In this document: in pieces, positions 27,462 through 62,605 of the stretch
How the letters are laid out: the number at the start of each line of letters is the position of its first letter
Position numbering within the stretch: position 1 is the first letter of the stretch
From: Maricaulis sp.
GTDB taxonomy: Bacteria > Pseudomonadota > Alphaproteobacteria > Caulobacterales > Maricaulaceae
Assembly: GCF_017642925.1 (NCBI RefSeq)
Contig: NZ_JAEPOL010000004.1
Coordinates: 62,001 to 126,000 of the forward strand
Length of the DNA stretch: 64,000 bases
Direction of reading: 5' to 3'
Translations under genes and position numbers: made by a program
Notes under the pieces: generated by a model
Databases searched by the model: none
What the model was told of the DNA's origin: nothing
Seen by the model: only the letters and a program-made list of their open reading frames with translations

Positions 27462-27512
27462 TCGCATTTTCGAACCGCAAAACCGGTCCCCACTTTTGCT
27501 GAAAATGCTCTA
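27462..27512 (-). repeat. Stop-codon-abutting hairpin, copy 1
   Basis: Read on the minus strand it begins with the TAG stop of the DksA-like gene, then AGCATTTTC-A-GCAAAA, loop GTGGGGACCGG, TTTTGC, GGTTC and GAAAATGC. Two nested stems form (GCATTTTC/GAAAATGC and GCAAAA/TTTTGC). The same 51-base element, with one base changed, closes the FKBP gene at 62555-62605. Confidence 0.8.
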
Positions 27513-27839
27513 AGCACAACCGGCGCAGCGTGGCGTTGCCGGATCAATCTCCAGCCGCCGCGCTTCGATCGTTTCACCGCATTCCACGCACCAGCCGTAT
27601 TCGTCATTCTCCAGCCGTTCGAGCGCGGCGTCGATGCGACGTATTTCCTGCGCCCGCCGGGCCTCGGCCGCCTTGGCCATCGCCTGCACCTGCAGGGAAT
27701 CCTGGCGCGACAAGCGCCCGACCGATTGCTGGTCGAGCGCCACGGGCTGCCGGTCCTCGCGCGCAGCCACGGACAAGTCCCGCAATTCCTCGCGCAGCGC
27801 GAGAAGCCGCGATCTCGCAGTTTCCGGCTCGATGGACAT
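27510..27839 (-). CDS. DksA/TraR-type C4 zinc-finger protein
   Basis: A 109-residue protein: a helical N-terminal two-thirds (coiled coil, ALREELRDLSVAAREDRQP; MAKAAEARRAQEIRRIDAAL) and a C-terminal zinc finger YGWCVECGETIEARRL with CAGCA. DksA-like proteins enter the RNA polymerase secondary channel and modulate transcription. This is a short member and its coiled-coil tip differs from E. coli DksA. GGGGAGATC precedes the ATG. Its TAG stop is the first part of a palindromic repeat. Confidence 0.87.
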   Translation of the reverse strand: MSIEPETARSRLLALREELRDLSVAAREDRQPVALDQQSVGRLSRQDSLQVQAMAKAAEARRAQEIRRIDAALERLENDEYGWCVECGETIEARRLEIDPATPRCAGCA

Positions 27840-28019
27840 GATCTCCCCGACTGTCTTGCAGCGCTCACTATCGCCCCGCAGGCGGCGCGCCCCAAGACCG
27901 CGCTGCAGCCGCCGGTCCTGACCGCGAGAGGAACCGGGAGGGACGTTTTGCTGTTCAATACCGGTGGATCACTGCGCGGCGCACCTCTAGTTTCGCAGGA
28001 CACGATACTGAGGGGCATC

Positions 28020-28961
28020 ATGTCAGAGACCATTCTCGCCTTGGACAGCGTCTCCAAGACGTTCAACGGCAAGCCCGCCGTCCGCGATGTCAGTTTTTCC
28101 GTGGAACGCGGCCAGATTACCGGTTTCCTGGGGCCGAACGGCGCCGGCAAGACCACCAGCCTGCGCATGTCGCTGGGCATTCTCACGCCCGACCGCGGCA
28201 CGGTTTCGCTGTTCGGCGGCCCGCCGCGTCCGGCGGCGCTCGACCGCGTCGGCTTCCTGCCGGAAGAGCGGGGTATCTATCGCAAGATGAAGGTGATCGA
28301 TGTGATCGTCTTCTTCGCCCGGCTGAAGGGCGTCGCCCCCGCCGAGGCACGCCGCCGCGGCCTCCAGATGCTCGAGGAATTCGGCCTCGCCGAGGTCGCC
28401 GAGAGCAAGGTGAAGACCCTGTCCAAGGGCATGGCGCAGAAGGTCCAGATCATCTCGACCCTGGTGCACGAGCCGGAATTCATCATTCTCGACGAACCCT
28501 TCTCCGGCCTCGACCCGGTGAACCAGTATGCGCTGGAGCAGGTGGTGCGCCGGCAGGCCGAGGCCGGGCGTACCGTGCTGTTCTCGACCCACGTGATGGA
28601 ACACGCCGAACGCCTGTGCGACAAGATCGTGCTGATCGCCAAGGGCCGGAAGGCTTTCGACGGCACGGTCGCCGAGGCGCTGGGCCAGGTACCGCGCCGC
28701 GTGACGCTGGAGATCGTCTCCGATCATGATCTTTCCAAGGTGCTGGCCGGCAAGGGCGAGGTTCACCGCGAGACCCAGGGCGAACACGAGGTCTGGATCG
28801 TCGATCTGGGTCCCGGTGTCGATGCCCAGGACATTCTCAAGGCCTGTGTCGATGCCGATGTGAAGCTGACCCGGTTCGAACCGGTGCGCGCCCATCTGCA
28901 TGATGCCTTTGTCCATCTCGTCGGCCGCGAAGCCGCCGCCCCGGAAGCGGAGACCGTCTGA
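28020..28961 (+). CDS. ABC transporter ATP-binding protein (NatA-like)
   Basis: A 313-residue ATPase with Walker A GPNGAGKTTS, Q-loop region VGFLPEERGIYRKM, signature LSKGMAQKVQ, Walker B FIILDEPFSGLD and switch STHVMEH. The C-terminal DUF4162-type extension (about residues 220-313) is typical of ABC-2 export systems such as NatA. It ends in TGATG with the permease gene. It energises export of an unknown substrate; NatAB of Bacillus exports sodium. Confidence 0.92.
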   Translation: MSETILALDSVSKTFNGKPAVRDVSFSVERGQITGFLGPNGAGKTTSLRMSLGILTPDRGTVSLFGGPPRPAALDRVGFLPEERGIYRKMKVIDVIVFFARLKGVAPAEARRRGLQMLEEFGLAEVAESKVKTLSKGMAQKVQIISTLVHEPEFIILDEPFSGLDPVNQYALEQVVRRQAEAGRTVLFSTHVMEHAERLCDKIVLIAKGRKAFDGTVAEALGQVPRRVTLEIVSDHDLSKVLAGKGEVHRETQGEHEVWIVDLGPGVDAQDILKACVDADVKLTRFEPVRAHLHDAFVHLVGREAAAPEAETV

Positions 28962-30358
28962 TGCGCAATATCTATCTCATCGCCCGCCGCGAATTCCTGT
29001 CCTATGTCGCGACCTGGGGCTTCTGGCTGTCGCTGCTCTCCGTGCCGCTCTTCATGGCGCTGGGCTTCGGCATGCCGATCCTGATCGAGAACTCCCAGCC
29101 GACCCGCTACTACGTGCTGGTCGACGAGACCGGTGGCCGTCTGGAAGAGGCCGTGTTCGAACAGATCGACCGGTCCCGCGAGGACCAGGCCGAGCAGGCG
29201 CGCGAAGCGGCGCGCGAAATCCTCGGCGACAATCCGCAGCTCGGGGAAGCGTTCGACAATTCGATGCAGCTGGACAATGACGGCTATATCCGCGTCGAGG
29301 CCGGCACGACCGATCTCAACGAGTTGCGGCCCTATCTGACCGGCGATGCCGAGCTGGAAACCGCCGACGGCCCGCAACCGCTCTTTGCCGCCATCTTCCT
29401 CAGCGAACCCGTGCCGGGCCGTGTCGAGATGGCCTACTGGAGCACCAATCTGACCGATCGCGACCTGCGCCGCGATATCCGCGACGCCCTGCGCGATTAC
29501 ATGCATTTGCGCCATCTGGTGGAGAATGGCGTCGACCCGGCGCTGATCGAGGCGGCCGAAGACCTTGAGCCCGTGGTGCGCGAGCTCAATCCGGAACGCA
29601 CCGACGAGGCCGCCGAAGTCACCGAAAGCGAACGCCTGCCCATCGTGATGGGTGTGGCGACCGCCTTCGGCCTGTGGATCGTGATCTTCTCGGTGGTGAA
29701 CATGCTGCTCACCGCGATGATCGAGGAGAAGGGCAACAAGGTGCTGGAGATGATGCTGGCCTCGGCCCGGCATCACGAGATCCTCACCGGCAAGCTGCTC
29801 GGCGTGGCGGCCGTCTCCGCCACCCTGCTGATCTTCTGGGGCGGCCTCGCCTCGATCGGCGGACTGGCGATCCAGCAATTGATGGCGGCCGCCGACATTC
29901 CGGCTGCGGAAATCCTGGCCGCCCTGTTCGATCCGGCACTGCTGGGCCCGGCGATCGGCTATTTCATCGTCGGCTATCTGATGTATGGCGCGGTCTTCCT
30001 GGCGATCGGTTCGCTGTGCGAGACGATCCAGGACGCCCAGACGCTGATGAGCCCGATGATGCTGGTGATGATGATGCCGCTCTTCCTGGTGATGATGGCC
30101 ATCGACGCGCCCGATTCGCCTATCGTGGCGATCGCCAGCTGGATCCCGCTGTGGACCCCCTTCATCATGCTGGTCCGCCTGCCCCAGGATATCGGCATGA
30201 TCGAGATCATCGGCTCGACCCTCGGCATGGTGGTCACCGCCATGATCGTGATCTGGGGTGCAGGCGTCCTGTTCCGCATGGGCGCCCTCAACCAAGCCAA
30301 CCAGGACACGGTGAAGAGCTGGTTCCAGTTCGGCGGCAAGAAAAAGGCGGCGGGGTAG
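28961..30358 (+). CDS. ABC-2 type transporter permease (NatB-like)
   Basis: A 465-residue membrane protein. It has one N-terminal helix (YVATWGFWLSLLSVPLFMALGFG), a large extracytoplasmic domain (about residues 45-225) and five to six C-terminal helices (IVMGVATAFGLWIVIFSVVN onward) with the EEKGNKVLEMMLASAR motif of ABC-2 permeases. It overlaps the ATPase gene by one base. The pair forms a complete exporter. A composite palindromic repeat follows 51 bases after its stop. Confidence 0.9.
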   Translation: MRNIYLIARREFLSYVATWGFWLSLLSVPLFMALGFGMPILIENSQPTRYYVLVDETGGRLEEAVFEQIDRSREDQAEQAREAAREILGDNPQLGEAFDNSMQLDNDGYIRVEAGTTDLNELRPYLTGDAELETADGPQPLFAAIFLSEPVPGRVEMAYWSTNLTDRDLRRDIRDALRDYMHLRHLVENGVDPALIEAAEDLEPVVRELNPERTDEAAEVTESERLPIVMGVATAFGLWIVIFSVVNMLLTAMIEEKGNKVLEMMLASARHHEILTGKLLGVAAVSATLLIFWGGLASIGGLAIQQLMAAADIPAAEILAALFDPALLGPAIGYFIVGYLMYGAVFLAIGSLCETIQDAQTLMSPMMLVMMMPLFLVMMAIDAPDSPIVAIASWIPLWTPFIMLVRLPQDIGMIEIIGSTLGMVVTAMIVIWGAGVLFRMGALNQANQDTVKSWFQFGGKKKAAG

Positions 30359-30408
30359 GGCGGCGCGGCGCCTGCCGCACACCCCTTTCCGTCAACGCCA
30401 CCAACAAC

Positions 30409-30512
30409 CGTCATTCCGGCGAAGGCCGGAACCCAGGTCATAGGATCGGGTTGAGCCAAGTTTGGCACGATGCTGTTCTGAGATCTGGGTCCTGACTTTC
30501 GTCAGGATGACG
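30409..30512. repeat. Single copy of the composite palindromic repeat
   Basis: It starts CGTCATTCCGGCGAAGGCCGG, has a diverged centre, and ends GATCTGGGTCCTGACTTTCG then TCAGGATGACG. Both ends match the copies around the GIY-YIG gene at 57-58 kb. Here no nuclease gene is nearby. Confidence 0.75.
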
Positions 30513-30560
30513 GATTGTGGGGGCAGCAGAAACCTCGCCCTGACGGACCGCAATGCCCAA

Positions 30561-30600
30561 AAGGAAAACGCCGCGCCCCGGATCCGGGACGCGGCGTTTT
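30561..30600 (-). terminator. Rho-independent terminator of rpsU
   Basis: The arms CGCGGCGTTTT (30590-30600) and AAAACGCCGCG (30565-30575) form an eleven-base-pair stem around a loop holding CCGGATCCGG. On the minus strand the stem is followed by CCTT. It lies 30 bases after the rpsU stop. Confidence 0.85.
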
Positions 30601-30629
30601 CGCGAAACCTGTATCAAGGTCTGGCGACC

Positions 30630-30860
30630 CTAGCGGCGACCGCCACGCTTCGCGATGAGACCCTCGCGCTGCGCCCGCTTGCGGGCCAGCTTGCGCGCAC
30701 GGCGAATGGCTTCAGCCTTTTGGCGAGCCTTCTTCTCCGACGGCTTTTCATAATGATTGCGGCGCTTCATCTCGCGGAAAGTACCTTCCCGCTGCATCTT
30801 CTTTTTCAGCGCGCGGAGCGCTTGCTCCACATTATTGTCGCGCACAACGATCTGTACGAT
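30630..30860 (-). CDS. rpsU: 30S ribosomal protein S21, probable ATC start codon
   Basis: A 76-residue S21. The family N-terminus [15 protein letters not shown] aligns so that the initiator is an ATC codon at 30858-30860, preceded by GGAGAG at six bases. No ATG, GTG or TTG lies at this point; the nearest conventional start in frame is a TTG at 30887, which would add nine residues not seen in S21 proteins. The rest ([35 protein letters not shown]) is standard. S21 helps mRNA binding on the small subunit. It diverges from coq9. Confidence 0.9.
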
Positions 30861-31011
30861 GGCTCTCTCTCCATTATCTGGACGCAAGGACCATCCTCAC
30901 GCCGCTAGTTCGCCAGAGGCGGGGCTACTACCAGAGCTGCGACGCCGTGTCCACTCTGTCAGCGCACACGGGCGTAGTGACGCGCAGGCGCGTCTGGTCT
31001 AGGAATGACGC

Positions 31012-31689
31012 ATGACCGATGCCGCTTCTGACACCCGATTTCGCAAGTCTACCACACGCGAGGCCCTGCTGCAGCCCATGCTGGCCCATGCGGCCTTCGA
31101 TGGCTGGACGGCAGACAGTTTCCGCGCGGCCTGCGCCGATGCCGGGATCGATGAGGGCCAGGCCCGCCTGGCCTGCCCGCGCGGCGAGCTGGACATGCTG
31201 GTGCACTGGTCACGGCGCCTGGACGAGGCCGTGCTGGACGCAGTAAAGGCGGCAAACCTCGCCGAGATGAAGATCCGCGAGCGCGTGCGCTTTGGCGTCA
31301 CGGCGCGCCTGGAAGCGCTCTCGGGACATGAGGAAGCCGCCCGCCGGGCCCGCGCCCGCCTGATGCTGCCGGACGCCGCTGCAGAGGGGCCGCAATTGCT
31401 GTGGGCGACGGCAGACACGATCTGGCGCGCGATCGGCGACACCTCGACCGACGTCAATTTCTACTCGAAGCGGACGATTCTCTCCGGCGTTTTCGGCACG
31501 ACCCTGGTCGCCTGGCTCAATGAGAGCGATGCCGCAAAGCCCGAAGCCCGCGCCTTTCTCGACCGCCGCATCCAGAATGTGATGGATTTCGAGAAGACCA
31601 AGGCCCAGCTGACCAAGATGACCGCCGACCTGCCCGACCTCGCCGGCCTGCTCGGCAAGCTGCGCTACGGCCCGGGACCGCGGGTATAG
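31012..31689 (+). CDS. coq9: COQ9 family protein (ubiquinone biosynthesis)
   Basis: A 225-residue protein with a TetR-like helical fold. The COQ9 C-terminal signature is clear: DTSTDVNFYSKRTILSGVFG and TLVAWLNE. COQ9 is a lipid-binding partner of the COQ7 hydroxylase in mitochondria, and the alphaproteobacterial protein is presumed to act likewise at the inner membrane. Divergence from rpsU is the usual arrangement in the class. AGGA precedes the ATG. Confidence 0.9.
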   Translation: MTDAASDTRFRKSTTREALLQPMLAHAAFDGWTADSFRAACADAGIDEGQARLACPRGELDMLVHWSRRLDEAVLDAVKAANLAEMKIRERVRFGVTARLEALSGHEEAARRARARLMLPDAAAEGPQLLWATADTIWRAIGDTSTDVNFYSKRTILSGVFGTTLVAWLNESDAAKPEARAFLDRRIQNVMDFEKTKAQLTKMTADLPDLAGLLGKLRYGPGPRV

Positions 31690-31698
31690 CTTAGTTAG

Positions 31699-32496
31699 CT
31701 AACCCTCCCACCGCGGAGAAGCGTACCAGGCCTGCTCGGCGGGCACCTGGACAAGGTCGCGCTCGGGCCAGCGCAGGGCGGTGAGATGGCCGCCGAAGAC
31801 GCAGCCGGTATCCACACAGACGACATTGTTGTGCTCGCGCACATCGGGTTCGGCGACATGGCCGTGCACAACGGTCGCTGTGCCGGAATAATTGCGCGCC
31901 CAGTTGCGGCGGACGGGCAGGCCGTGCAGGTCCCGCTCGCCCGTCACTTCACCGAACATGGCAAAGGCCCGCACCCGGGTCGTGTCCTCGCCATGCATGT
32001 CGGCATGAACGCCGGCATGGGCGACCACCAGCTCACCGCCATCGAGCAGGAGGTGGTGCGGCAGGCTGTCGATGAAGGCCGCGACCTGACGGCAGAAGGC
32101 GTCACTCTCGCGGCGGAACTGGGCGATCGTGGCGTCGAGCCCGTGGCTCACCTTCACATCGCGTCCGGCCAGCCAGCGGCGGAACTTGTCGTCATGATTG
32201 CCGACCACGCAATAGCCCGCCCCGGTCTCCACCAGATGCATGGCCAGACGCATCACGTCCGGCGTACGCGGTCCCCGGTCGACCAGATCGCCCAGTAGGA
32301 CCGCCTTGCGTCCCTCGGGATGCCTGATGCGGTAGTCGCGTGAGCCGGCCACGCCCTCATAGCGCACCTCATAGCCCAGCCGGTGCAGCAGCCGCTCCAG
32401 CTCGCCGGCACAGCCATGCACATCCCCGATCAGATCGAACGGGCCGCTGTCATCGATGAAACGGTCGGGTGCGGTGGGATTTGCCATCATGTCCAT
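31699..32496 (-). CDS. Metallophosphoesterase (PrpE/PP2A-like)
   Basis: A 265-residue phosphatase with the dimetal motifs DLIGDVHGCAGELERLL, LLGDLVDRGPRTPDVM, VVGNHDDK, the His in LVVAHAG and HGHV. The order and spacing match PrpE/bis-tetraphosphatase-like bacterial phosphatases. Starts at 32496 or 32487 (MANPTAPD) are both possible; GGGGG precedes them. The substrate may be a dinucleotide or phosphoprotein. It is downstream of purK on the same strand. Confidence 0.85.
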   Translation of the reverse strand: MDMMANPTAPDRFIDDSGPFDLIGDVHGCAGELERLLHRLGYEVRYEGVAGSRDYRIRHPEGRKAVLLGDLVDRGPRTPDVMRLAMHLVETGAGYCVVGNHDDKFRRWLAGRDVKVSHGLDATIAQFRRESDAFCRQVAAFIDSLPHHLLLDGGELVVAHAGVHADMHGEDTTRVRAFAMFGEVTGERDLHGLPVRRNWARNYSGTATVVHGHVAEPDVREHNNVVCVDTGCVFGGHLTALRWPERDLVQVPAEQAWYASPRWEG

Positions 32497-32535
32497 GCCC
32501 CCAATATGGGGCCCGGGACAGCCGAGTGCGAACCC

Positions 32536-33615: not shown

Positions 33616-33621
33616 GGAAGA

Positions 33622-34149
33622 TCAGTCCTCGACCGTCACCGGTACGCTGTCGGTCTGGGCCTGGCGCCAGTGTGCCAGCCGACCGGCGACCCCGTCATCG
33701 GACAGGGAGAGAATGGACGCCGCGAGAAGCCCGGCATTGGTGGCGCCGGCCTCGCCGATCGCCAGCGTGCCCACCGGTACGCCGGCCGGCATCTGGACGA
33801 TGGACAGGAGGCTGTCCTGACCGCTCAGCGCCTTGGACTTCACCGGCACGCCCAGCACCGGCAGGGTTGTCATGGATGCGATCATGCCCGGCAGGTGAGC
33901 CGCACCGCCGGCACCGGCGATGATCACCTTGATCCCGCGATCGCGCGCACCCTTGGCGAACTCGACCAGCCGGTCCGGCGTGCGGTGCGCCGAGACGACC
34001 TGGGCTTCGTAGTTCACGCCGAGATCGCGCAGCAGGCCGGCCGCCTTCTTCATGGTCGGCCAGTCGGACCGTGAACCCATGACGATGGCGACATCGGCAG
34101 GGCTGGCAGCGGCGGCCATATCGGGTGAGGACGGCGAAAGATCGCTCAT
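33622..34149 (-). CDS. purE: N5-carboxyaminoimidazole ribonucleotide mutase
   Basis: A 175-residue enzyme. The class I PurE motifs are [25 protein letters not shown] (catalytic His), [14 protein letters not shown] and [19 protein letters not shown]. It isomerises N5-CAIR to CAIR. The N-terminal 18 residues before the conserved core are an unconserved tail. AGGAAG precedes the ATG. It is the first gene of purEK and diverges from the GGDEF gene. Confidence 0.96.
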
Positions 34150-34308
34150 GACGCTTCCTGAACGAAGAAAAGGAAGCGCGGGACCTTAACCACAGCGCGA
34201 GGAAGGTCAAGGCGCCTTTCAAGACAGGGCAATTCTTTCCGGGCTTGAGGGTTTCTTAACCACACTTGTTCACGTTTCGGGAGGATTGGAATCGGAGTGG
34301 ATCGGCGC

Positions 34309-35046: not shown

Positions 35047-35066
35047 GCGCCAGGCCCTGACGGGGA

Positions 35067-47037: not shown

Positions 47038-47646
47038 ATGACCGATACCTCGCCCCGCCACATCCTCCGCGTCGATGCCAGCATGCGCCGGGAGGGCTCG
47101 CACAGCCGCGGCCTGGCCGACCGTGTGATCGACCGCCTCACCGCACAGCGCCCGGACACCCGTGTCACGGTGCGCGATCTTGCGGACGGGTCGATGCGCC
47201 TCGTCGACGAGACCTGGATCGGCGCGAACTTCACCGATCCGGCCCAGCGCTCGGACGACCAGAAGGCGGCACTGGCCTTCTCCGACCGGCTGGTCTCGGA
47301 ACTGCGCGCCGCCGACACGCTCGTCATCACCGTGCCGATCTACAATTTCACCATTCCGGCCTCACTGAAGGCCTGGATCGACCTGGTCGCACGGGCCCGG
47401 GAAACCTTCCGCTATACCGAAGCCGGCCCGGAAGGCCTGCTGACCGGCAAGCGCGCCATCGTGGTCTATGTCTCCGGCGGCGTTGCGGCCGGCAGCGAGA
47501 CCGACTTCGCCACGGACTACATGAAGCATGTGCTGAAATTCATCGGCATTACCGATGTCGAGATCATCGACGCCGGGCAGCTGATGTTTGCGGAAGCCGA
47601 GAAGCTCGAAGCCGCGCACGCACGGATCGAGACGCTGGCAGCCTGA
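47038..47646 (+). CDS. azoR: FMN-dependent NADH-azoreductase
   Basis: A 202-residue flavodoxin-fold enzyme. It has the N-terminal ILRVDASMRREGSHSRGLAD (phosphate loop), VITVPIYNFTIPASLKAWID (FMN binding), and YVSGGVAAGSETDFATDYMK. AzoR reduces quinones and azo compounds with NADH and FMN as a dimer. The gene diverges from the MotA/OmpA-like pair. Directly after its TGA comes a palindromic hairpin element. Confidence 0.92.
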   Translation: MTDTSPRHILRVDASMRREGSHSRGLADRVIDRLTAQRPDTRVTVRDLADGSMRLVDETWIGANFTDPAQRSDDQKAALAFSDRLVSELRAADTLVITVPIYNFTIPASLKAWIDLVARARETFRYTEAGPEGLLTGKRAIVVYVSGGVAAGSETDFATDYMKHVLKFIGITDVEIIDAGQLMFAEAEKLEAAHARIETLAA

Positions 47647-47692
47647 AGCGTGATCAGGTGAAGTGGGTACCGGTTCACCGGTTCGATCACGC
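47647..47692 (+). repeat. Stop-codon-abutting hairpin, variant stem
   Basis: It starts on the base after the azoR stop: A-GCGTGATC-A-GGTGAA, loop GTGGGTACCGG, TTCACC, GGTTC, GATCACGC. The layout, loop and bulges equal those of the elements at 27462 and 62555, but both stems have different, still perfectly paired sequences. Confidence 0.8.
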
Positions 47693-47704
47693 GACCACCC
47701 AAGT

Positions 47705-47757
47705 AGAGCGTGATCAGGTGAAGGAGCAGAACCGGTTCCGCAGGAAACGATCCTGCC
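47705..47757. repeat. Degenerate hairpin element abutting the suhB stop
   Basis: The first 16 bases (AGCGTGATCAGGTGAA) repeat those of the azoR element, and an ACCGG loop core is kept. The far arm GATCCTGC pairs imperfectly. The element ends directly at the suhB TAG (47758-47760, minus strand). Confidence 0.65.
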
Positions 47758-48555
47758 CTAGGCCGAAGCCGTCTTCAGGCGTGCGGTGAGTTCGGCGAGC
47801 ATGTCTTCATTGCCGGCAGCGATATTGCCGGTGCGCAGGATGTCCTCGCCGCCATCGGCTTCGGCCACGAAACCGCCGGCCTCTTTCACCAGCACGATAC
47901 CGGCCGCGATATCCCAGGATTTCAGATTGCGTTCCCAGAAGCCGTCATAGCGGCCGGCCGCAACCCAGGCGAGATCGAGCGCCGCGGATCCCATGCGGCG
48001 GATACCCGCCGTGTAGGGCATGATCTGGTGCAATTCCTTGAGGAAGCGGGCATGACCGGTCTTGCCCATGAAGGGCATGCCGGTGGCGATCACGGCCTCG
48101 TCGAAATGCTTGCGATTGGCTACGCGCAGACGGCGGTCCGCCAGCCAGGCACCGCGGCCCTTCTCGGCGTGGAACATCTCGTCGGTGGCGGGATTGTAGA
48201 TCACGCCGGCGACCAGCTCGCCCTCGCGCTCCAGCGCGATGGAGACGGCAAAGTGCGGCATGCCGTGCAGGAAGTTCAGCGTCCCGTCCAGCGGATCGAC
48301 GATCCAGCGGTGGGACCGGTCGGTGCCCTCGACCACGCCGCGCTCTTCCATCAGGAAACCGTAACCCGGGCGGGCCTGGGTCAGACGGTCATAGATGATG
48401 TCCTCGGCCTTCTTGTCCGCGATCGAGACGAAGTCGGCCGGCCCCTTGCGGGACACCTGCAGGTGCTCGACATCACGGAAGTCGCGATTCAGCGAGCGCC
48501 CGGCGCGGGCGGCCACTTCTGTCATCACGGTCAGGAGAGGAGAAAGGGCACCCAT
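47758..48555 (-). CDS. suhB: Inositol monophosphatase family protein (SuhB-like)
   Basis: A 265-residue Mg-dependent phosphatase with FLMEERG (Glu ligand), WIVDPLDGTLNFLHGMPHFA and SWDIAAGIVLVKEAGG. The length and motifs fit SuhB, which hydrolyses inositol-1-phosphate and in E. coli also binds NusA in rRNA antitermination. It starts six bases after efp, in the unit thiE-Sel1-efp-suhB. Confidence 0.92.
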   Translation of the reverse strand: MGALSPLLTVMTEVAARAGRSLNRDFRDVEHLQVSRKGPADFVSIADKKAEDIIYDRLTQARPGYGFLMEERGVVEGTDRSHRWIVDPLDGTLNFLHGMPHFAVSIALEREGELVAGVIYNPATDEMFHAEKGRGAWLADRRLRVANRKHFDEAVIATGMPFMGKTGHARFLKELHQIMPYTAGIRRMGSAALDLAWVAAGRYDGFWERNLKSWDIAAGIVLVKEAGGFVAEADGGEDILRTGNIAAGNEDMLAELTARLKTASA

Positions 48556-51232: not shown

Positions 51233-51700
51233 ATGTCCATCAAAACCATTTTCGCCGCCACGATTGCCGCTGCCGCGGTCGCCGGCGTTGCCGCCGCCCA
51301 GGACTGGTCGCAAAGCCCGACCTTCGGCCAGACCACGCTCACGGCCGGTTTCGCGCCGGACCCGTACACGGTCTCCATCACCGCGGGCGGCAATATCGAC
51401 GCCAGCTCCTCGCTCGGCGGCTCCTGCCGCGGCATGATCGCCAACGCGCCGGACTACCGCCTGCACTACAATGCCGGCAGCCTGCCGCTCTACATCGGTG
51501 CCCGCTCGAACGCCGACACGACGATCGTCGTCAACGCGCCGGACGGCTCCTGGTACTGCAATGACGACAGCAACGGCCTGAACCCGATGGTGTCCTGGTC
51601 GAACCCGCCGTCCGGTCAGTACGACATCTGGATCGGCACCTATGGTTCCGGCAGCGGCATGGCCTCGGCCACGCTGACCATCTCCGAGCTGGGCAACTAG
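51233..51700 (+). CDS. Small secreted protein of the Caulobacterales 'peptidase S1'-labelled type
   Basis: A 155-residue protein with a signal peptide (MSIKTIFAATIAAAAVAGVA, AAQ) and a Ser/Gly/Asp-rich beta domain: DPYTVSITAGGNIDASSSLG, then CRGMIANAPDYRLHY and DTTIVVNAPDGSWYCNDDSN, QYDIWIGTYGSG. The two Cys may form a disulphide. Database labels of this group as peptidase S1 are by recollection; no catalytic triad is visible. AGGGGGA precedes the ATG and a strong terminator follows. It is probably a pre-peptidase-type binding domain. Confidence 0.72.
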   Translation: MSIKTIFAATIAAAAVAGVAAAQDWSQSPTFGQTTLTAGFAPDPYTVSITAGGNIDASSSLGGSCRGMIANAPDYRLHYNAGSLPLYIGARSNADTTIVVNAPDGSWYCNDDSNGLNPMVSWSNPPSGQYDIWIGTYGSGSGMASATLTISELGN

Positions 51701-54215: not shown

Positions 54216-54237
54216 GATCAAAGGTCCCGAGCGCGAT

Positions 54238-55251: not shown

Positions 55252-55257
55252 GCTCAC

Positions 55258-56848: not shown

Positions 56849-56870
56849 GTTTCCGCTTACCGGAACGAGA

Positions 56871-56902
56871 AAAGGGGCGCCCGATGCGGCGCCCCTTTTT
56901 TG
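56871..56902 (+). terminator. Rho-independent terminator of sqdB
   Basis: GGGGCGCC (56874-56881) pairs with GGCGCCCC (56888-56895) around a six-base loop and is followed by six Ts. Confidence 0.88.
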
Positions 56903-56948
56903 TGTGCGCGTGCCGGCCATCACACTCTCAACCCTCCCCATCTCCTAA

Positions 56949-57039
56949 CGTCATTCCGGCGAACGCCGGAACCCAGTCGGACGGAAGGTCTGGGGCCTGA
57001 CTGAAGCCTGCGCCCGCGAAAGCGGGTGTCAGGATGACG
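56949..57039. repeat. Composite palindromic repeat, copy A (long form)
   Basis: It opens CGTCATTCCGGCGAACGCCGG and closes GGTGTCAGGATGACG. The first 20 bases fold on themselves (CCGGCG/CGCCGG), as does the GCGCCCGCGAAAGCGGGTG block near the end. The outer ends CGTCAT and ATGACG also pair. This long form has a GAAGCCTGCGCCCGCGAAAG insert. Confidence 0.85.
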
Positions 57040-57099
57040 GTATGTGGGTGGGAAACTGCTTGAGGCCGGGCAGCAAGAGCTGGACAGACCAAACTTCGC

Positions 57100-57168
57100 C
57101 GTCATTCCGGCGAACGCCGGAACCCAGTCGAGCAGCCGGTCTGGGTCCTGACTTTCGTCAGGATGACG
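57100..57168. repeat. Composite palindromic repeat, copy B (short form)
   Basis: It has the same opening as copy A but closes TCCTGACTTTCGTCAGGATG then ACG, in place of the longer block. It ends ten bases before the GIY-YIG start codon, and another in-frame ATG (57163) lies inside it. Confidence 0.85.
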
Positions 57169-57177
57169 GTGTCGGGG

Positions 57178-57498
57178 ATGGAGGCAGAAGTGGCGAAGCA
57201 CCCGTGCGTCTACATTCTCGCCAGTCAGCGAAACGGCACACTCTACACAGGCGTGACAGGCAATATCGCAAACCGTGTCATGCTGCACAAACAAGGCAAG
57301 GGGTCGGCCTTCACCAGAAAGTACGGCGTCACGCGGCTGGTCTGGTATGAGTTTCACGAGGATTTCGGCTTTGCCATCGAACGCGAAAAGCGGATCAAGA
57401 ACTGGCGCCGTGCATGGAAGCTCGAGCTGATTGAGGCCACCAATCCCGATTGGGAGGACCTCTACGAAACGATCCAGATGTGGGCCCCGATGGATTGA
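57178..57498 (+). CDS. GIY-YIG nuclease family protein inside a repeat array
   Basis: A 106-residue protein. The GIY-YIG motif appears as CVYILASQRNGTLYTGVTGN, followed by NRVMLHK and the catalytic-region Arg; then FTRKYGVTRLVWYEFHEDFG, the Glu in AIEREKRIKNWRR, and NPDWEDLYE. This is the short, stand-alone clade (YhbQ/URI-like) with no extra DNA-binding domain. ATG 57178 is chosen; ATG 57163 lies in the repeat. Repeats A and B lie before it and C-F after it. Solo GIY-YIG proteins have no settled role. Confidence 0.88.
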   Translation: MEAEVAKHPCVYILASQRNGTLYTGVTGNIANRVMLHKQGKGSAFTRKYGVTRLVWYEFHEDFGFAIEREKRIKNWRRAWKLELIEATNPDWEDLYETIQMWAPMD

Positions 57499-57514
57499 GT
57501 GTCCCATTCTCTAC

Positions 57515-57603
57515 CGTCATTCCGGCGAACGCCGGAACCCAGTCGGACGGAAGATCTGGGTCCTGACTGAAGCCTGCGCCCGCGAAAGCAGTGGCAGGCT
57601 GAC
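57515..57603. repeat. Composite palindromic repeat, copy C (long form, degenerate end)
   Basis: The opening is CGTCATTCCGGCGAACGCCGG and the body agrees with copy A, but the closing block reads CAGTGGCAGGCTGAC, so the outer stem is weakened. It starts 17 bases after the GIY-YIG stop. Confidence 0.8.
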
Positions 57604-57664
57604 ATCATATGGGTGGGAAACGGCTTGAGGCCGGGCAGCAAGAGCTGGACAGAACGAATATCTC

Positions 57665-57733
57665 CGTCATTCCGGCGAAAGCCGGAACCCAGTCGGGCGG
57701 AAGATCTGGGTCCTGACTTTCGTCAGGATGACG
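57665..57733. repeat. Composite palindromic repeat, copy D (short form)
   Basis: It opens CGTCATTCCGGCGAAAGCCGG and closes TCCTGACTTTCGTCAGGATG then ACG. The 53 bases between copies C and D nearly equal those between A and B. Confidence 0.85.
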
Positions 57734-57803
57734 GTCTGAGGGAGGAAAACCGTTTGAGACAAGTGATCACTCAGCCGGAAGAACTTGCCAGACCGAACTC
57801 CAA

Positions 57804-57894
57804 CGTCATTCCGGCGAACGCCGGAACCCAGTCGGCCAGTTGGTCTGGGTCCTGACTGAAGCCTGCGCCCGCGAAAGCGGGTGTCAGGATGACG
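57804..57894. repeat. Composite palindromic repeat, copy E (long form)
   Basis: It has a long-form body and closing GGTGTCAGGATGACG as in copy A, with a GGCCAGTTGGTCTGG variation in the middle. The spacer before it (57740-57803) nearly equals the one before copy F. Confidence 0.85.
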
Positions 57895-57964
57895 GTCTGT
57901 GGGAGGAAAACCGTTTGAGACAAGTGATTGCTCAGCCGGAAGAACTCGCCAAACCAAACTTCAC

Positions 57965-58055
57965 CGTCATTCCGGCGAACGCCGGAACCCAGGCGGACGG
58001 AAGGGCCGGGTCCTGACTGAAGCCTGCGCCCGCGAAAGCGGGTGTCAGGATGACG
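57965..58055. repeat. Composite palindromic repeat, copy F (long form)
   Basis: It opens CGTCATTCCGGCGAACGCCGG and closes GGTGTCAGGATGACG. It ends 15 bases before the argE stop codon on the minus strand and so marks the edge of the array. Confidence 0.85.
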
Positions 58056-58069
58056 TCGGAGACATGCCC

Positions 58070-59239
58070 TTACCCTTCCAGCACCCGCACCAGCTTCTCC
58101 ATGAACACGCAGCACTGATCGAGCTGGTCAATCGCCACAAACTCATCCGGCTGGTGGGCCTGGGAGATCGAGCCGGGACCGCAGACGACGACGGAGAGGC
58201 CCGCGGCCTGGAACTGGCCGGCCTCGGTGCCGTAGGAGACGACGCGGGTGGAATTGTCGCCGGTGAGCTGGCGGGCGAGGCGTTCCGCGGCACCGTCGAC
58301 TTCCGGAGCGAAAGCCGGCACGTCCGAGCGCACCTTGATCTCGATCCTCGCTTCCGGCGCGCCCTCGCGCATCTTCGCCTCGATCGCGGCGGCCCGCTCG
58401 CGCAGGCCTTTCTCGATAGCCTTCACATCATCCCAGGGCGCCGGACGCATCAGCGAGGCAAACTCGGCTTCCAGCGCCAGGATGTTCAGCGCGGTGCCGC
58501 CGTGCATCTGGCCGATGGTCAGCGTGCCATAGGGCGGGTTGAACGGGCTGTCCGCCGGCGCCGCAGCCTCCATCTTCGCGGCCTCGTCGACCAGATACTG
58601 CATCAGCGGCACGGCATGGGTGACGGCGCAGGCGCCATCCCTGACCAGCGAGGAATGCGCCTCGCGGCCGCGCAGTTTCACGGTCAGCGAGAACAGGCCC
58701 TTGTGAGCGGTGACGACCTTCATGTCGGTCGGCTCGCCGACGACCACGATGGCCGGCTTTACCGGACCCTCCATGATCCGGTCGATCAGGGCCGGCGCGC
58801 CCAGGCAGCCCACCTCCTCGTCATAGGAGAGCGCGATATGCACCGGCTTTTTCAGCTCCGCCGCCGCAAAGGCGGGAGCCAGGGCCAGAATGCAGGCCGA
58901 GAACCCCTTCATGTCACAGGTGCCGCGACCATAGAGCAGCCCGTCCTTTTCGGTCAGCGACCAGGGATCGGTCGACCAGGGCTGGCCGTCCACCGGCACG
59001 ACATCGGTATGCCCGGACAGGATCACGCCGCCATCCACCGCCGGGCCGAAGCGCGCATGCAGATTGGCCTTCGTGCCGTCGGCATTGGGAATGCGCTCGC
59101 ACACCGCCCCCAGCGCCACCAGTTTCGCCTCGACATGGTCGATCAGCGGCAGGTTGGAATTGCGCGACGTGGTGTCGAAAGCGACGAGGTCGCGCAGTTC
59201 GGCGATGGCGGTGTCGAGATGGGGGGAGGCAGCGGCCAT
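58070..59239 (-). CDS. argE: Acetylornithine deacetylase
   Basis: A 389-residue M20 metallopeptidase. Metal ligands and catalytic residues are in LSGHTDVVPVDGQPW, GRGTCDMKGFSAC, SYDEEVGCLGAP and VVVGEPTDM; the dimerisation domain has KLRGREAHSSLV. The motif set fits ArgE rather than DapE. It removes acetate from N-acetylornithine in arginine synthesis. It is a single gene; repeats lie directly downstream. Confidence 0.9.
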   Translation of the reverse strand: MAAASPHLDTAIAELRDLVAFDTTSRNSNLPLIDHVEAKLVALGAVCERIPNADGTKANLHARFGPAVDGGVILSGHTDVVPVDGQPWSTDPWSLTEKDGLLYGRGTCDMKGFSACILALAPAFAAAELKKPVHIALSYDEEVGCLGAPALIDRIMEGPVKPAIVVVGEPTDMKVVTAHKGLFSLTVKLRGREAHSSLVRDGACAVTHAVPLMQYLVDEAAKMEAAAPADSPFNPPYGTLTIGQMHGGTALNILALEAEFASLMRPAPWDDVKAIEKGLRERAAAIEAKMREGAPEARIEIKVRSDVPAFAPEVDGAAERLARQLTGDNSTRVVSYGTEAGQFQAAGLSVVVCGPGSISQAHQPDEFVAIDQLDQCCVFMEKLVRVLEG

Positions 59240-59363
59240 GAGAGCAATCCGATTTATATTGTCGCCAACGTGTTAGCCGGGTTTTTACGGCAAAGACAAA
59301 TGCGAGTCCGCCCCGGACGCGATCTTGGGCACAGTCGCCCGGTTCGACTGGGACATGTGGGCG

Positions 59364-60851
59364 ATGATCACGAAGCTGGCAAACCGGATGATGATGTTCG
59401 CGCGGGCGACGCGCGGCAATGTCGCGATGATTTTCGCGCTGGTGCTGACGCCCCTGACGGTGCTGTCGGGCGGCGCCGTCGATCTCAACCAGGCCCTCAA
59501 TGCGCGCACCCGCCTGTCCCAGGCGCTGGATGCGGCCGCGCTGGCCGTCGGCGTGCAGACCTCGATCAGCGAGACCGACGCCGCCACGCTCGCCCGCGAT
59601 TTCCTGCAGGCAAACTATCAGAACCGCGAGATCGGCAGCGTGCAGAATCTCGTGGTGACACTGGACACGGTGAATGACCGGGTGCGGGTCAGCGCGGAGT
59701 CGAAGATCGAGACCATCGTGCTGGGCCTGATCGGCATCCCCTATCTCACGGTTGCCTGGGAGACCGAGGTCCAGCGGGCGCGCAGCGAGCTGGAACTCGT
59801 CATGGTGCTCGACAATACCGGCTCGATGGGCGGTTCCAAGATTTCCAGCCTGCGCTCGGCCGGCCTGCTGCTGACCGATATCCTGTTCGACGGCGCCGAT
59901 GCCGACATGTTGCGGATCAGCCTGGTGCCCTTCTCTTCGACGGTGAATGTCGGCACCCAGTTCGATCGCGCCTGGTGGATGGACCCGGACGGGCTGTCGC
60001 CGGTGCATTCGGAGAATTTCAGCCCGGCCGCCAATCGCTGGGACATCTATGACACCATCCGCAATCGCGACTGGACGGGCTGTGTGGAAGCGCGGCCGAT
60101 CCCGCACGATATCGAGGACACCCCGCCCTCGGCCGGCGATCCGGAAACCCTGTTCGTGCCCTATTTCGCACCGGACGAGTCCGACCGCGGTTCCTATTCC
60201 AACGATTATCTCGACGACGATATGGGCGGATATGACGAGCGGGCGCGCATGCGCAACACGTCGAAATACACCAATGCCTGGATCTCCGGTGCCGGTCCGG
60301 GCTGGGGCTGCACCGCCCGCCCGATCACGCCGCTCACGAGCCATCGCGGCACGATCGACGATGCGATCGGCGACATGATCGCCAGCGGCACGACCAACAT
60401 CCCCAACGGTATCGGCTGGGGGGTGCGCGTGCTCTCGCCCGGCGAGCCTTTTACCGGCGGCGCGCCTTTTGACCAGGATGACACGATCAAGGCCATGGTG
60501 GTGCTGACCGATGGCGAGAACGTCATCAATGGCCGGTCCAACCAGAACTATTCCGACTATTCCGGCTATGGCTATGCACGCGACGGCCGGGTCGGGGTCG
60601 TGTCTTCGAGCTCGGGCACGCTGTCCAACGCGCTCGACGCGCGTACGCTGGCCGCCTGCGAATACGCCAAGTCGCTGGGCATCCGGGTCTACACGATCAC
60701 TTTCCAGGTCAACTCCACCTCGACCCGCAACATGATGCGCGACTGCGCCAGCAACCCCTATCTCTATTTCGACTCGCCGTCGGAATCGGCGCTGCGCAGT
60801 GCCTTCGAGATGATTGCCGGCGACCTGACCAATCTGCGCCTCTCCCGGTAG
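59364..60851 (+). CDS. TadG-like pilus-assembly protein with VWA domain, first of two
   Basis: A 495-residue protein. One N-terminal helix follows the TadE/G motif RGNVAMIFALVLTPLTVLSG, then GAVDLNQALNARTRLSQALD. The VWA domain has the MIDAS motif VMVLDNTGSMGGSK, and ends with YTITFQVNSTSTRNMMRDCA. It is likely anchored in the inner membrane with the bulk in the periplasm. The start is ATG 59364, matching the paralog; ATG 59355 or TTG 59325 are possible. No other tad gene is in the window. Confidence 0.87.
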   Translation: MITKLANRMMMFARATRGNVAMIFALVLTPLTVLSGGAVDLNQALNARTRLSQALDAAALAVGVQTSISETDAATLARDFLQANYQNREIGSVQNLVVTLDTVNDRVRVSAESKIETIVLGLIGIPYLTVAWETEVQRARSELELVMVLDNTGSMGGSKISSLRSAGLLLTDILFDGADADMLRISLVPFSSTVNVGTQFDRAWWMDPDGLSPVHSENFSPAANRWDIYDTIRNRDWTGCVEARPIPHDIEDTPPSAGDPETLFVPYFAPDESDRGSYSNDYLDDDMGGYDERARMRNTSKYTNAWISGAGPGWGCTARPITPLTSHRGTIDDAIGDMIASGTTNIPNGIGWGVRVLSPGEPFTGGAPFDQDDTIKAMVVLTDGENVINGRSNQNYSDYSGYGYARDGRVGVVSSSSGTLSNALDARTLAACEYAKSLGIRVYTITFQVNSTSTRNMMRDCASNPYLYFDSPSESALRSAFEMIAGDLTNLRLSR

Positions 60852-60938
60852 GCGCTTAACCCTCCGGAAACCCTGCGGGATAACGTGCCCTTAATTCAGA
60901 ACCGCTAGCATTTTAGCGAGTTCGAACGGGATTCCGTC

Positions 60939-62498
60939 ATGCCGCTTGCCAGGCTGTTGAAAAACCTGCGCGCATTCCTCGCCGACCGGCGCGGCAATGT
61001 GGCCATGATCTTCGCGCTGTCGCTGATGCCGATCACGCTGCTGGCGGGCGGTGCCGTCGACCTGAACCAGGCCATGACTGCACGGACCCGCCTGTCGCAG
61101 GCGCTCGACGCCGCTGCGCTGGCCGTGGGTGTGAATACCAGCCTGTCCGATGCCGACGCCCTGCGCATCGCGAACGATTTCATTGCCGCCAATTATCCCA
61201 ACAATCGCGTCGGCACGGTGACCAGCGTCACGGTGGTGATCGACGACGACACCGACACGGTGACCGTGACCGGCGAGGCCACGGTGAACACCATCATGCT
61301 CGGACTGGCCGGGATCGACCATCTCACGGTCGGCTGGGAGAGCGAGGTCCAGCGGGCCCGCCAGCGGCTGGAACTGGTCATGGTGCTCGACAATACCGGC
61401 TCGATGGGCGGCTCGAAGATCCGCTCGCTGCGCGACAGTGCCGAACTGCTGACCGAAATCCTGTTCGAGGCGGCCGACGAACCCTCCGACGTGAAGATCG
61501 GCCTCGTGCCCTTCGCGGCGACGGTGAATGTCGGCACCCAGTATGAGCGCGCCTGGTGGCTCGATCCGGACGCCCTGTCACCGCAGCATGCCGAGTGGGC
61601 CGGACCGAATGGCGAGATCGAGATCGAGACCTGTTCGGGCTGGGGCTGGCGGCGGCGCTGCGAGACCGAGACGATCGAGGTCAATCACTGGGACCTCTAT
61701 GACGAGCTGCGCAATGCCGAATGGATGGGCTGTGTCGAAGCACGCGCTCTGCCGCATGACATCGAGGACACGCCGCCCAGCGCCGGCAACCCGGCAACCC
61801 TGTTCGTACCCTATTTCGCACCGGACGAGCCGGACAATGGCTATTTCTCGAACAGCTATCTCAATGACGGCACCAGTGGCGGTGTCGAGGAGCGGCTGGA
61901 GAACATCGCCAAATACGAAAATGCCTCGGTCTGGTCCGGCTATCCCAACCGGTCCTGCACCACGACGCCGATCACGCCGCTGACCTCGAACCAGCGCACG
62001 GTCGAGAACGCCATCGGCGACATGGAAGCCAGTGGCAATACCAATATTCCCAACGGCATCGGCTGGGGCATCCGCGTCATCTCGCCCGGCGAACCCTTCA
62101 CCGAAGGCACCGGCTATGACGATGACGAGGTCATCAAGGCCATGGTGATCCTGACCGACGGCGACAATGTCATGTCCGGCCGAAACACAAACCTGATGTC
62201 GGACTACGAGGCCTATGGCTATGCCCGCGACGGCCGTCTGGGCATTCGCACATCCAGCGGCGGCGTTCTGTCGAACGAGCTCGACGAACGCACCGAAGCG
62301 GCCTGTGACTATGCCAAGGCCCAGGGCATCCGCGTCTACACGATCACCTTCCAGGTCAATTCAAGCTCGACCCGGAACATGATGCGCGACTGTGCCTCGC
62401 ATCCCAGCCTGTATTTCGACTCGCCGTCGAACCAGGCGCTGCGGGACACGTTCGAGATGATCGCCGGCGACCTGACGAATCTGCGCCTGTCGCGCTAA
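60939..62498 (+). CDS. TadG-like pilus-assembly protein with VWA domain, second of two
   Basis: A 519-residue paralog of the gene before it, alike along its whole length (RRGNVAMIFALSLMPITLLA; VMVLDNTGSMGGSKIRSLRD; DLTNLRLSR at the end). It differs by an insert of about 20 residues with paired Cys (CSGWGWRRRCETET) in the VWA domain. The two arose by tandem duplication. A hairpin repeat starts on the base after its stop. Confidence 0.88.
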   Translation: MPLARLLKNLRAFLADRRGNVAMIFALSLMPITLLAGGAVDLNQAMTARTRLSQALDAAALAVGVNTSLSDADALRIANDFIAANYPNNRVGTVTSVTVVIDDDTDTVTVTGEATVNTIMLGLAGIDHLTVGWESEVQRARQRLELVMVLDNTGSMGGSKIRSLRDSAELLTEILFEAADEPSDVKIGLVPFAATVNVGTQYERAWWLDPDALSPQHAEWAGPNGEIEIETCSGWGWRRRCETETIEVNHWDLYDELRNAEWMGCVEARALPHDIEDTPPSAGNPATLFVPYFAPDEPDNGYFSNSYLNDGTSGGVEERLENIAKYENASVWSGYPNRSCTTTPITPLTSNQRTVENAIGDMEASGNTNIPNGIGWGIRVISPGEPFTEGTGYDDDEVIKAMVILTDGDNVMSGRNTNLMSDYEAYGYARDGRLGIRTSSGGVLSNELDERTEAACDYAKAQGIRVYTITFQVNSSSTRNMMRDCASHPSLYFDSPSNQALRDTFEMIAGDLTNLRLSR

Positions 62499-62534
62499 AG
62501 CAATTTCACGGCCATCGATGCCAATGAAATTGCT
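62499..62534. repeat. Hairpin element directly after the second TadG-like gene
   Basis: AGCAATTTCA (62499-62508) and TGAAATTGCT (62525-62534) form a perfect ten-base-pair stem with a 16-base loop. It begins at the first base after the TAA, and TTTTTTG follows 6 bases later, so it may also terminate transcription. Confidence 0.75.
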
Positions 62535-62554
62535 CCAGCTTTTTTGTTGAGCGA

Positions 62555-62605
62555 TCGCATTTTCGAACCGCAAAACCGGTTCCCACTTTTGCTGAAAATG
62601 CTCTA
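62555..62605 (-). repeat. Stop-codon-abutting hairpin, copy 2
   Basis: This is the same 51-base element as at 27462-27512, with one base changed in the loop (GTGGGAACCGG). On the minus strand its first three bases are the TAG stop of the FKBP gene. Confidence 0.82.

Follow-up and report, generated by a model that had tools for sequence, protein, structure and literature searches.

We conclude that the hairpins adjoining stop codons in this 64-kb stretch of Maricaulis DNA (the window) probably form the left arm of a roughly 105-bp mobile repeat that is non-autonomous, resembles the CIR elements of Caulobacter and inserts into CTAG or YTAR with duplication of the target; their position at stop codons most likely reflects this insertion rather than an RNA role. 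A sequence-only reading had described three elements of a common layout, and all three are present and fold as claimed, with scores of 74.8–79.9 bits under a covariance model that was itself built partly from two of the three loci it rescored. That reading covered the left half of the element, missing hairpin 2 and the second end. An intact unit spans approximately 100–106 bp, with CTAGAGC ahead of hairpin 1, a linker between the hairpins and GCTCTAG after hairpin 2; stop codons can abut either end. The features concerned are as follows.

27441..27447, minus strand: GAGCTAG at the dksA-like locus, possible right-end remnant (sequence reading)
27458..27512, minus strand: hairpin-1 unit, dksA-like locus (covariance model, 79.9 bits)
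31687..31689, plus strand: unit-free TAG site (comparison with G071)
47644..47698, plus strand: hairpin-1 unit, azoR-like locus (covariance model, 74.8 bits)
47704..47761, plus strand: partial second hairpin 1 and hairpin-2 arm (sequence reading, comparison with a relative)
51698..51700, plus strand: unit-free site, gene stop TAG in CTAG (comparison with G038 and G009)
62499..62534, minus strand: hairpin 2 of the FKBP composite, AGCAATTTCA...TGAAATTGCT (fold, relatives)
62551..62605, minus strand: hairpin-1 unit, FKBP locus (covariance model, 79.6 bits)

At the dksA-like locus, the outer stem GCATTTTC/GAAAATGC, an A and the inner stem GCAAAA/TTTTGC carry the loop GTGGGGACCGG and the bulge GGTTC, after which comes a tail that in hairpin 1 approximates GACCRCTCA; the azoR-like unit has GCGTGATC/GATCACGC and GGTGAA/TTCACC as its stems and GTGGGTACCGG as its loop, and the loop of the FKBP unit is GTGGGAACCGG. 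We also weighed a pseudoknot pairing the ACC of the loop with the GGT of the bulge, and discarded it, as there appear to be no linker bases to span it. Each unit lies, as had been claimed, at the stop codon of the preceding gene: TAG 27510–27512 is supplied to the dksA-like gene (domain zf-dskA_traR), TGA 47644–47646 of the azoR-like gene (Flavodoxin_2) is the start of its unit, and TAG 62603–62605 of the FKBP gene (FKBP_C) lies on the third. The degenerate fourth copy said to end at the suhB stop is also real: a shortened second hairpin 1 (47704–47722), complete in a relative and only partial in the window, is fused to a hairpin-2 arm, and the suhB stop lies inside the terminal CTAG (47758–47761). 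Hairpin 2 of the FKBP composite adjoins the TAA stop (62496–62498) of the convergent gene 60939–62498, and the two hairpins together fold at −34.5 kcal/mol (z −3.34). A search for hairpin 2 at the dksA-like locus did not find one. Beyond the three complete elements the best covariance-model match in the window reached 15.8 bits, and Rfam gave no window match above its gathering threshold and two weak ones at E up to 10.

Insertion is favored by sites that are filled in one genome and empty in another. At the FKBP locus, G056, G060 and G063 are empty: CGCGACAG comes after GGCTAG or GCCTAG, and the convergent TAG stops overlap in a single CTAG; the window reads GGCTAG, the unit and then TTAGCGCGACAG, and the sister genome G071 has the same flanks around a different unit in the opposite orientation, so that both units lie between YTAG copies. 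This is the one locus with a base-exact empty site and both flanks, and because its right copy reads TTAG, duplications of 2 bp and 4 bp are indistinguishable there. The azoR-like and suhB-like stops are 6–8 bp apart in 4/10 sister genomes and 111 bp apart, with the unit, in the window; other sequence lies between them in 6/10. Two further sites are unit-free in the window. At 51698, where a terminator-like hairpin and T run (identified by eye) follow the stop, G071 is likewise unit-free, and in G038 and G009 a hairpin-1 unit, whose stem differs (GGATTGCC), lies between the TAG and the terminator-like hairpin. At the counterpart of 31687, G071 has a composite (L309) in reverse orientation, hairpin 2 first, whose opposite-strand TAG at 54 is the gene stop, although this site is not base-exact because the flanks diverge. 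Locus L013 also differs in presence between this genome and G071. When orthologous sites were sought across the genus for two more loci, neither yielded a usable one: the protein at one has no close ortholog outside this genome and G071, and for the other a single genome gave a match, and that a weak one.

The enrichment at stop codons that the sequence-only reading implied is borne out, with a same-strand stop at offset −1 in 29/71 arrays of this genome and G071 as against 0.26% at random (per two-position window); the upstream stop coincides with the TRR of the element in 15/39 arrays of this genome and in 14/32 of its close relative G071. An opposite-strand stop lies 50–54 nt past the last hairpin 1 in 21/71 arrays, by hand count from the listing, and is TAG in every case. 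Four G071 rows were left out of the stop analysis as not element-like, one of which (L325) resembles a degenerate true copy. Many ends are not intact, which tells against the insertion reading: the left ends of the 71 arrays read TAGA in 22, TGAA in 10, TAAA in 8 and otherwise in 31 (TAGA or TAAA, 30/71), with L013 and the azoR side among the places where the left end is other than CTAG; on the right, CTAG occurs 40–75 nt past the last hairpin 1 in 28/71 and YTAR in 34/71, and intact units have TA at both termini. A crude search found an inverted repeat of some sort past the last hairpin 1 in 38/74 rows (three rows were dropped from the stop analysis), a count that includes some terminators and misses some hairpin-2 arms. 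Arrays step at about 60 bp, and their make-up varies between relatives. The window contains 28 CTAG sites, as compared to 928 of GCGC; 7 of the 28 are on stops, 12 in other noncoding sequence (some within elements) and 9 in coding sequence.

The covariance-model search also found the further copies, with new compensating stems, that the earlier reading had called for: 62 elements in this genome. The exact loop occurs at 62 genomic sites, versus 7 for the reversed pattern, and both stems are present at 44/62. G071 yielded 51 copies from an assembly that is 69% complete, 17 other genomes of the genus have 0–6 each (five of them counted under stricter filters), and family-wide 23/59 genomes have any copy. 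Most of the loci of this genome that were compared are also occupied in G071, and the burst is therefore not recent. Rhizobia and marine Alphaproteobacteria also have two-armed intergenic repeats of this type; rhizobial plasmid copies have the loop and layout in common with the window elements, and rhizobial and related plasmid copies likewise terminate annotated CDSs in 6/13 annotated regions, several of which were chosen for having a listed feature beneath the match. In one rhizobial case (H40) the copy is internal to an annotated hypothetical CDS. In 50 kb of S. meliloti pSymB, too small a sample, there was no copy, and other S. meliloti pSymB-sized records gave weaker partial matches. Carriage by phage was rejected, with no match among 50,697 phage records.

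That stems change and still pair around a constant loop is upheld by compensating changes at 12/14 stem pairs among 56 distinct sequences, which we take to come from three orders of Alphaproteobacteria. Members of the alignment (A2) were picked by pairing (at least 6/8 and at least 5/6 pairs), so its 97.6% of paired cells is inflated, the compensating changes being less affected. In 18 orthologous copy pairs, stem divergence is 3.0% versus 6.4% in adjacent coding sequence (p = 0.001), and the bulge and constant loop bases are likewise conserved above neighboring coding sequence; some constraint at the level of the hairpin therefore remains. This conservation in resident copies exceeds what neutral decay predicts and counts against a pure insertion account.

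The sequence-only reading took such features as selection on RNA structure at mRNA 3′ ends, of which the hairpin constraint is supported and the RNA level is not. A 3′-UTR element acting in 3′-end protection, termination, ribosome stalling or protein binding via the GTGGGNACCGG loop would account for the stop-codon adjacency, the stable folds (z −2.3 to −3.5), the compensating changes and the conservation between orthologs, and E. coli REPs at most 15 nt from a stop are reported to act on translation (PMC12306157). However, the same genes in most sister genomes lack the unit, right ends adjoin stops too, the orientation of the FKBP unit is reversed between two close relatives, and the hairpins can form on both strands, with no excess of G-U pairs over A-C mismatches (22 versus 17, p = 0.52, at modest power). 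As for termination, scans of two loci (47400–47900 and 62350–62800) gave no intrinsic terminator-like site (G+C-rich hairpin and T run), and at a third, the 51698 counterpart, a separate terminator-like hairpin is intact downstream of the insert. An RNA-level role as the explanation is thus unlikely, and the uneven copy numbers, the filled and empty sites and the stops at either end favor insertion into CTAG.

The insertion reading leaves the question of how the repeats move. This genome has neither Y1_Tnp (PF01797) nor DDE_3 (PF13358), and for 114 of 116 ORFs neighboring elements no transposase was among the 25 of 140 families listed. REP elements mobilized by a RAYT (TnpA_REP) transposase are defined by a stem whose foot bears a GTRG tag and by a lineage that encodes a Y1 transposase. 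The small imperfect hairpins and tandem groups seen here recall them, and GTAG-type REP ends are reported often to give TAG stops to flanking ORFs (PMC3733652), but those are palindromes of 20–40 bp with the tag at one end, whereas our units are two-armed, run CTAGAGC...GCTCTAG with CTAG at both ends, duplicate the target and lack a GTRG tag directly at the stem foot. No RAYT was found: Y1_Tnp is absent from this genome and from G006 with its 74 copies, and the 12/59 genomes that have it carry 0–4 copies (G071 fell outside this test), making a RAYT very unlikely. The target and TA duplication at the FKBP locus would also suit a MITE whose transposase, of IS630 or IS5 type, uses the TA of CTAG or YTAR, and Brucella IS711 reportedly duplicates the TA within YTAR, with a preference for Bru-RS palindromes (PMC2266754); with DDE_3 absent we regard such a MITE as rather improbable, although a transposase of IS630 type may have been lost from this genome. 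In the stretches of sequence that were read, no IS with ends like these was noticed. A DNA-level regulatory repeat tied to CcrM methylation would be in keeping with GANTC at one position of hairpin 2 in 8/12 rhizobial and related plasmid copies; among GCGTGATC-family arrays, 9/24 have it in the hairpin-2 zone. GANTC is found there, however, in only 4/46 GCATTTTC-family arrays and 0/1 other (13/71 overall), and this explanation is extremely improbable.

Under insertion into CTAG, the target would be CTAG or a close YTAR, with CTAG, or TA alone, duplicated. CTAG is very rare here, a quarter of its window copies overlapping stop codons, and a single CTAG can hold the TAG stops of two genes that converge; insertion into it would leave a TAG at each end, so that neither gene loses its stop and the event is tolerated. 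The folded hairpin and loop might be recognized by a trans-acting enzyme, which would let the stem letters drift as long as pairing, loop and bulge stay the same, and resident copies may act secondarily as 3′-UTR hairpins. More tentatively, and with considerable doubt, we suggest that an enzyme conserved across Alphaproteobacteria, neither RAYT nor of IS630 type, reads the GTGGGNACCGG loop and bulge of a bulged hairpin, not the letters of its stems, and inserts the two-armed units at CTAG, with convergent stops as safe landing sites and a stem "barcode" that changes per lineage by paired mutation.

RIME1 of rhizobia is about 108 bp long with two palindromes. Compared by description, RIME elements (named in PMC2573895) are intergenic repeats of related orders, as are the intergenic Bru-RS1/2 of Brucella, given as 103–105 bp (PMC2267715) and palindromic (PMC2266754) in the accessible parts of those papers. 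Br-REP1 and Br-REP2 of Bradyrhizobium are described in part of PMC5082802 as 3′-UTR palindromes with uneven copy numbers between relatives, Br-REP1 lying between convergent genes; their consensus, however, is unlike the window elements. The closest description is that of the Caulobacter CcrM-associated intergenic repeats, or CIR (Chen and Shapiro 2003, via excerpts of PMC2229807 and PMC10969869): approximately 110 bp, two long hairpin arms and a linker, TA termini, intergenic, in Alphaproteobacteria. Our intact units match this layout, the comparison being with the description and not with the sequences of C. crescentus CIR1–4. One difference is that most copies in this genome and G071 lack the GANTC that CIR carry in one arm's terminal loop; another is that the table in PMC2229807 gives CIR a target duplication marked "?" and no TIR, in contrast to the CTAG/TA duplication here. 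Searches of the open literature gave, by loop sequence, no title on bacterial repeats and, at title level, no CTAG/stop-codon MITE in Alphaproteobacteria and no paper on CIR with CcrM.

Caution is necessary when a covarying hairpin abuts a stop codon: it need not be a regulatory RNA, because insertion preference alone can put hairpins at stops. A review notes that the mobility of such repeats needs more information, with the target duplication unknown (PMC2229807), and the empty sites offer a testable answer on the target, namely insertion into CTAG with the stops on both sides preserved. The covariation, together with the fixed loop, offers a way to look for the protein recognizing these elements.

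Three elements of the window, described in the sequence-only reading as a hairpin of two stems with a constant loop and bulge (hairpin 1), are present as claimed, both in the sequence itself and as covariance-model matches:

27458-27512, minus strand, element at the stop codon of a dksA-like gene
47644-47698, plus strand, element at the stop codon of an azoR-like gene
62551-62605, minus strand, element at the stop codon of an FKBP gene

On the element strand the order is an 8-bp outer stem, a single A, a 6-bp inner stem, the loop GTGGGNACCGG, the inner stem, the bulge GGTTC and the outer stem, after which comes a tail near GACCRCTCAA. Folding predicts this structure for all three (z -2.3 to -3.4), and folds are predicted for their opposite strands too (z -2.5 to -3.5). 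In the 3.61-Mb genome, the loop has 62 exact matches, as compared to 7 for the reversed pattern, and both stems (at least 6 of 8 outer and at least 5 of 6 inner pairs) are present at 44 of these. A covariance model built from alignment A2 (56 distinct sequences, 26 from this genome and 30 from named records) also returns 62 copies (E ≤ 0.001), a few of them scoring far below the others, but these are a different set of places from the 62 exact loops.

The earlier reading was right about hairpin 1 but not about the full extent of the element: alignment with a close relative (G071; long blocks 88-97% identical, mostly near 94%) reveals hairpin 1 to be only the left part of a larger unit. When intact, this unit is ∼105 bp long and runs CTAGAGC, hairpin 1, linker, hairpin 2, CTAG; examples of hairpin 2 are GGAGCCATTTCATCG...CGATGAAATGGCTC and GGAGCAGG...CCTGCTC. 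Hairpin 1 often occurs in tandem arrays that repeat about every 60 bp; their length differs between the two genomes at several loci (1 vs. 3 copies at L046 and L252, for instance, and 1 vs. 2 at L015). Many units have an end lost or altered. Among 71 arrays kept (39 from this genome and 32 from G071, four G071 rows having been dropped), 22 have TAGA at the left end, 10 have TGAA and 8 have TAAA; a CTAG 40-75 nt past the last hairpin 1 is present in 28. In another genome, G006, many units (loci L227-L246) terminate in another module, made up of a truncated hairpin 1 and then a GTGCGCTACCGC...CTACTTGAGG-like stretch, and the right arm seems to have been exchanged there. Several alignments with G071 are obtained for window 56949-58018, which contains repeated segments (CTGGGTTCCGG recurs, minus strand); together these suggest an internally repeated gene.

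With genes called as open reading frames that span 90 or more codons and have a GC3 of 0.70 or higher, the first stem base directly follows a same-strand upstream stop plus one base (A) in 15 of 39 arrays of this genome and 14 of 32 in G071, the rate at random positions of the same loci being 0.26% per two-position window (n = 12,482); in 14/39 and 11/32 arrays, respectively, no same-strand stop was found near the left end. Stops at -5 to +2 are TAG 12, TGA 3 and TAA 3 in this genome and TAG 8, TGA 6 and TAA 2 in G071, and window genes overall use TGA 33, TAG 23 and TAA 5 times. At the end of hairpin 2, 50-54 nt past the last hairpin 1, an opposite-strand gene stops in 9/39 and 12/32 arrays, with TAG in all 21 cases; thus, stop codons can abut the unit on either side. 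On rhizobial and related plasmids, the TAG of TAGAGC is the stop of the upstream CDS in 6 of 13 annotated regions (H39, H43, H47, H56, H63 and H5, but not H3, H4, H7, H40, H48, H52 and H55), a fraction that is not an estimate because several regions were picked for having a feature at the match; the H40 element lies within an annotated hypothetical CDS. On Pseudosulfitobacter plasmid pSMR1-5 (L360, 1501-1552), an element lies between a DUF1403 gene and a gene annotated as ScpB, the start ATG of which falls inside the element's right outer stem; in many plasmids of Pseudosulfitobacter and some of Roseovarius, ScpB is a feature annotated under the match.

Three loci occur with and without the unit among the genomes compared. 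At the FKBP locus, the convergent genes of G056, G060 and G063 overlap by 4 bases, a single CTAG serving as both TAG stops; the window reads GGCTAG, unit, TTAGCGCGACAG. In G071 (FKBP protein 98% identical) the window's two flanks enclose a different unit in opposite orientation, its FKBP-side end not intact. The stops are 8-9 bp apart without a unit in G038, G009, G061, G066 and G067, and seven sisters carry 42-76 bp of other sequence. To the right of the window unit stands TTAG, as would result from duplication of TA, from one substitution or from an ancestral TTAG (as in G064). In 10 of 15 sister stretches (L395-L409), the gene convergent to FKBP (60939-62498, vWA-like by eye) has 1-2 additional tandem matches. 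At the second locus, the azoR-like and suhB-like stops (suhB being the name in the sequence-only reading) lie 6-8 bp apart without a unit in 4 of 10 sister genomes, with 69-107 bp of other sequence in three more genomes and a stretch of 916-994 bp in the last three (G070, G026 and G059); the window's 111-bp gap is occupied by a unit whose terminal CTAG contains the suhB stop. Another palindrome, of GGGGACAG...CTGTCCCC type, is found in this gap (L400, L402, L405, L407) in G062 and G070 and less clearly in G026. At the third, the gene ending at 51700, neither the window nor G071 has a unit (AACTAGTCC..., with a terminator-like hairpin nearby), an other-stem unit directly follows the same TAG in G038 and G009 with the terminator-like hairpin intact downstream, and six further sisters have TAA and no unit. 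This genome but not G071 has the unit at L013, and G071 alone of the two has one near window 31687.

Most likely, the unit is a mobile repeat that inserts into CTAG, duplicating CTAG or its TA; such insertion would make the unit's ends the TAG stops of its neighbours, with no RNA role needed. The window holds only 28 CTAG (7 on stops, 12 at other noncoding places, some within elements, and 9 coding) and 928 GCGC, one on a stop. Alternatively, the hairpin may be kept for an RNA-level role at mRNA 3' ends, which we consider unlikely. Across 18 pairs of orthologous copies, 15 of 504 stem positions (3.0%) differ, vs. 6.4% in neighbouring coding sequence (p = 0.001), as does 1 of 90 bulge positions; the hairpin core is thus better kept than its surroundings, as such a role would have it, though through either selection or exchange between copies. 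The loop differs at 12 of 198 positions (13 on recount; 8 at the free N). Differences in the tail, 28 among 180 positions, are partly due to linker types that vary with array length. Were the RNA strand under selection, G-U pairs should exceed A-C; among 101 distinct cores the counts are 22 and 17 (12 vs. 5 in this genome, 3 vs. 8 in G071), an asymmetry that is not significant, at modest power.

The stems vary widely (GCATTTTC, GCGTGATC, GACCTGTCC, GGATTGCC, GGGTGGTC and GCGCGGCC, for example) around a constant loop, the bulge and single A being constant with few exceptions. In A2, 12 of 14 stem pairs have both-sided changes (142 cells, vs. 38.6 upon shuffling); the share of paired cells is 97.6%, vs. 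32-47% with the partner strand slid, the former inflated because members were selected for pairing. In one stretch of this genome (L044, G000:C29:93000-100000), variants GCATTTTC+GCAAAA, GCATTTTC+GCGAAA and GACCTGTCC lie inside ∼4 kb, adjoined by three ORFs of 140-669 aa with no Pfam match at E 0.001. The 30 named cores are those passing the pairing rule among at least 114 stretches from a contig-database scan; judging by record titles and taxonomy, all 30 are alphaproteobacterial, including Maricaulis, Marinicauda, Oceanicaulis, Robiginitomaculum, Marinicaulis, several Rhodobacteraceae, Devosia, Pelagibacterium and Maritalea. Among the matches listed, none from Actinobacteria or other phyla passes the rule.

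Copy numbers across 19 genomes of the genus are 62 in ours, 51 in G071 (assembly 69% complete), 6 in G068, 4 in G046, 3 in G065, 2 each in G038 and G059, 1 in five and 0 in seven, with stricter filters applied to G009, G026, G038, G046 and G056. Matches occur in 23 of 59 genomes of the family (67 copies in G006, or 74 when searched alone) and in at least 40 of 385 in a class-wide sample, where ∼14 candidates were scored per genome and counts are thus lower bounds (ours scored 15). This unevenness is the pattern that lineage-specific amplification gives, although counts alone are also compatible with loss elsewhere. Neither a Y1 transposase nor DDE_3 was found in this genome, and for 114 of the 116 ORFs adjoining its arrays, the top 25 of 140 Pfam families by frequency include no transposase.

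CIR elements of Caulobacter and Brucella are described as ∼110 bp long, with two arms, a linker and TA at the termini, GANTC exposed in the terminal loop of one arm, and a target duplication given as "?" (PMC2229807). GANTC occurs at one hairpin-2 place in 8 of 12 rhizobial or related plasmid copies; in contrast to CIR, most arrays of our two genomes lack it in the hairpin-2 zone, where it is found in 13 of 71 (9/24 of the GCGTGATC family and 4/46 of the GCATTTTC family). The unit, compared with CIR by description, is thus CIR-like, and strict membership is not claimed. Ends that supply stops, as here, have already been reported for GTAG REPs (PMC3733652). None of the papers retrieved with the loop sequence from the open literature searched has a title on bacterial repeats. 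Two features appear to be new: a CTAG landing site that is duplicated at stops shared by both neighbours, and stem covariation that ranges widely while the loop stays fixed.
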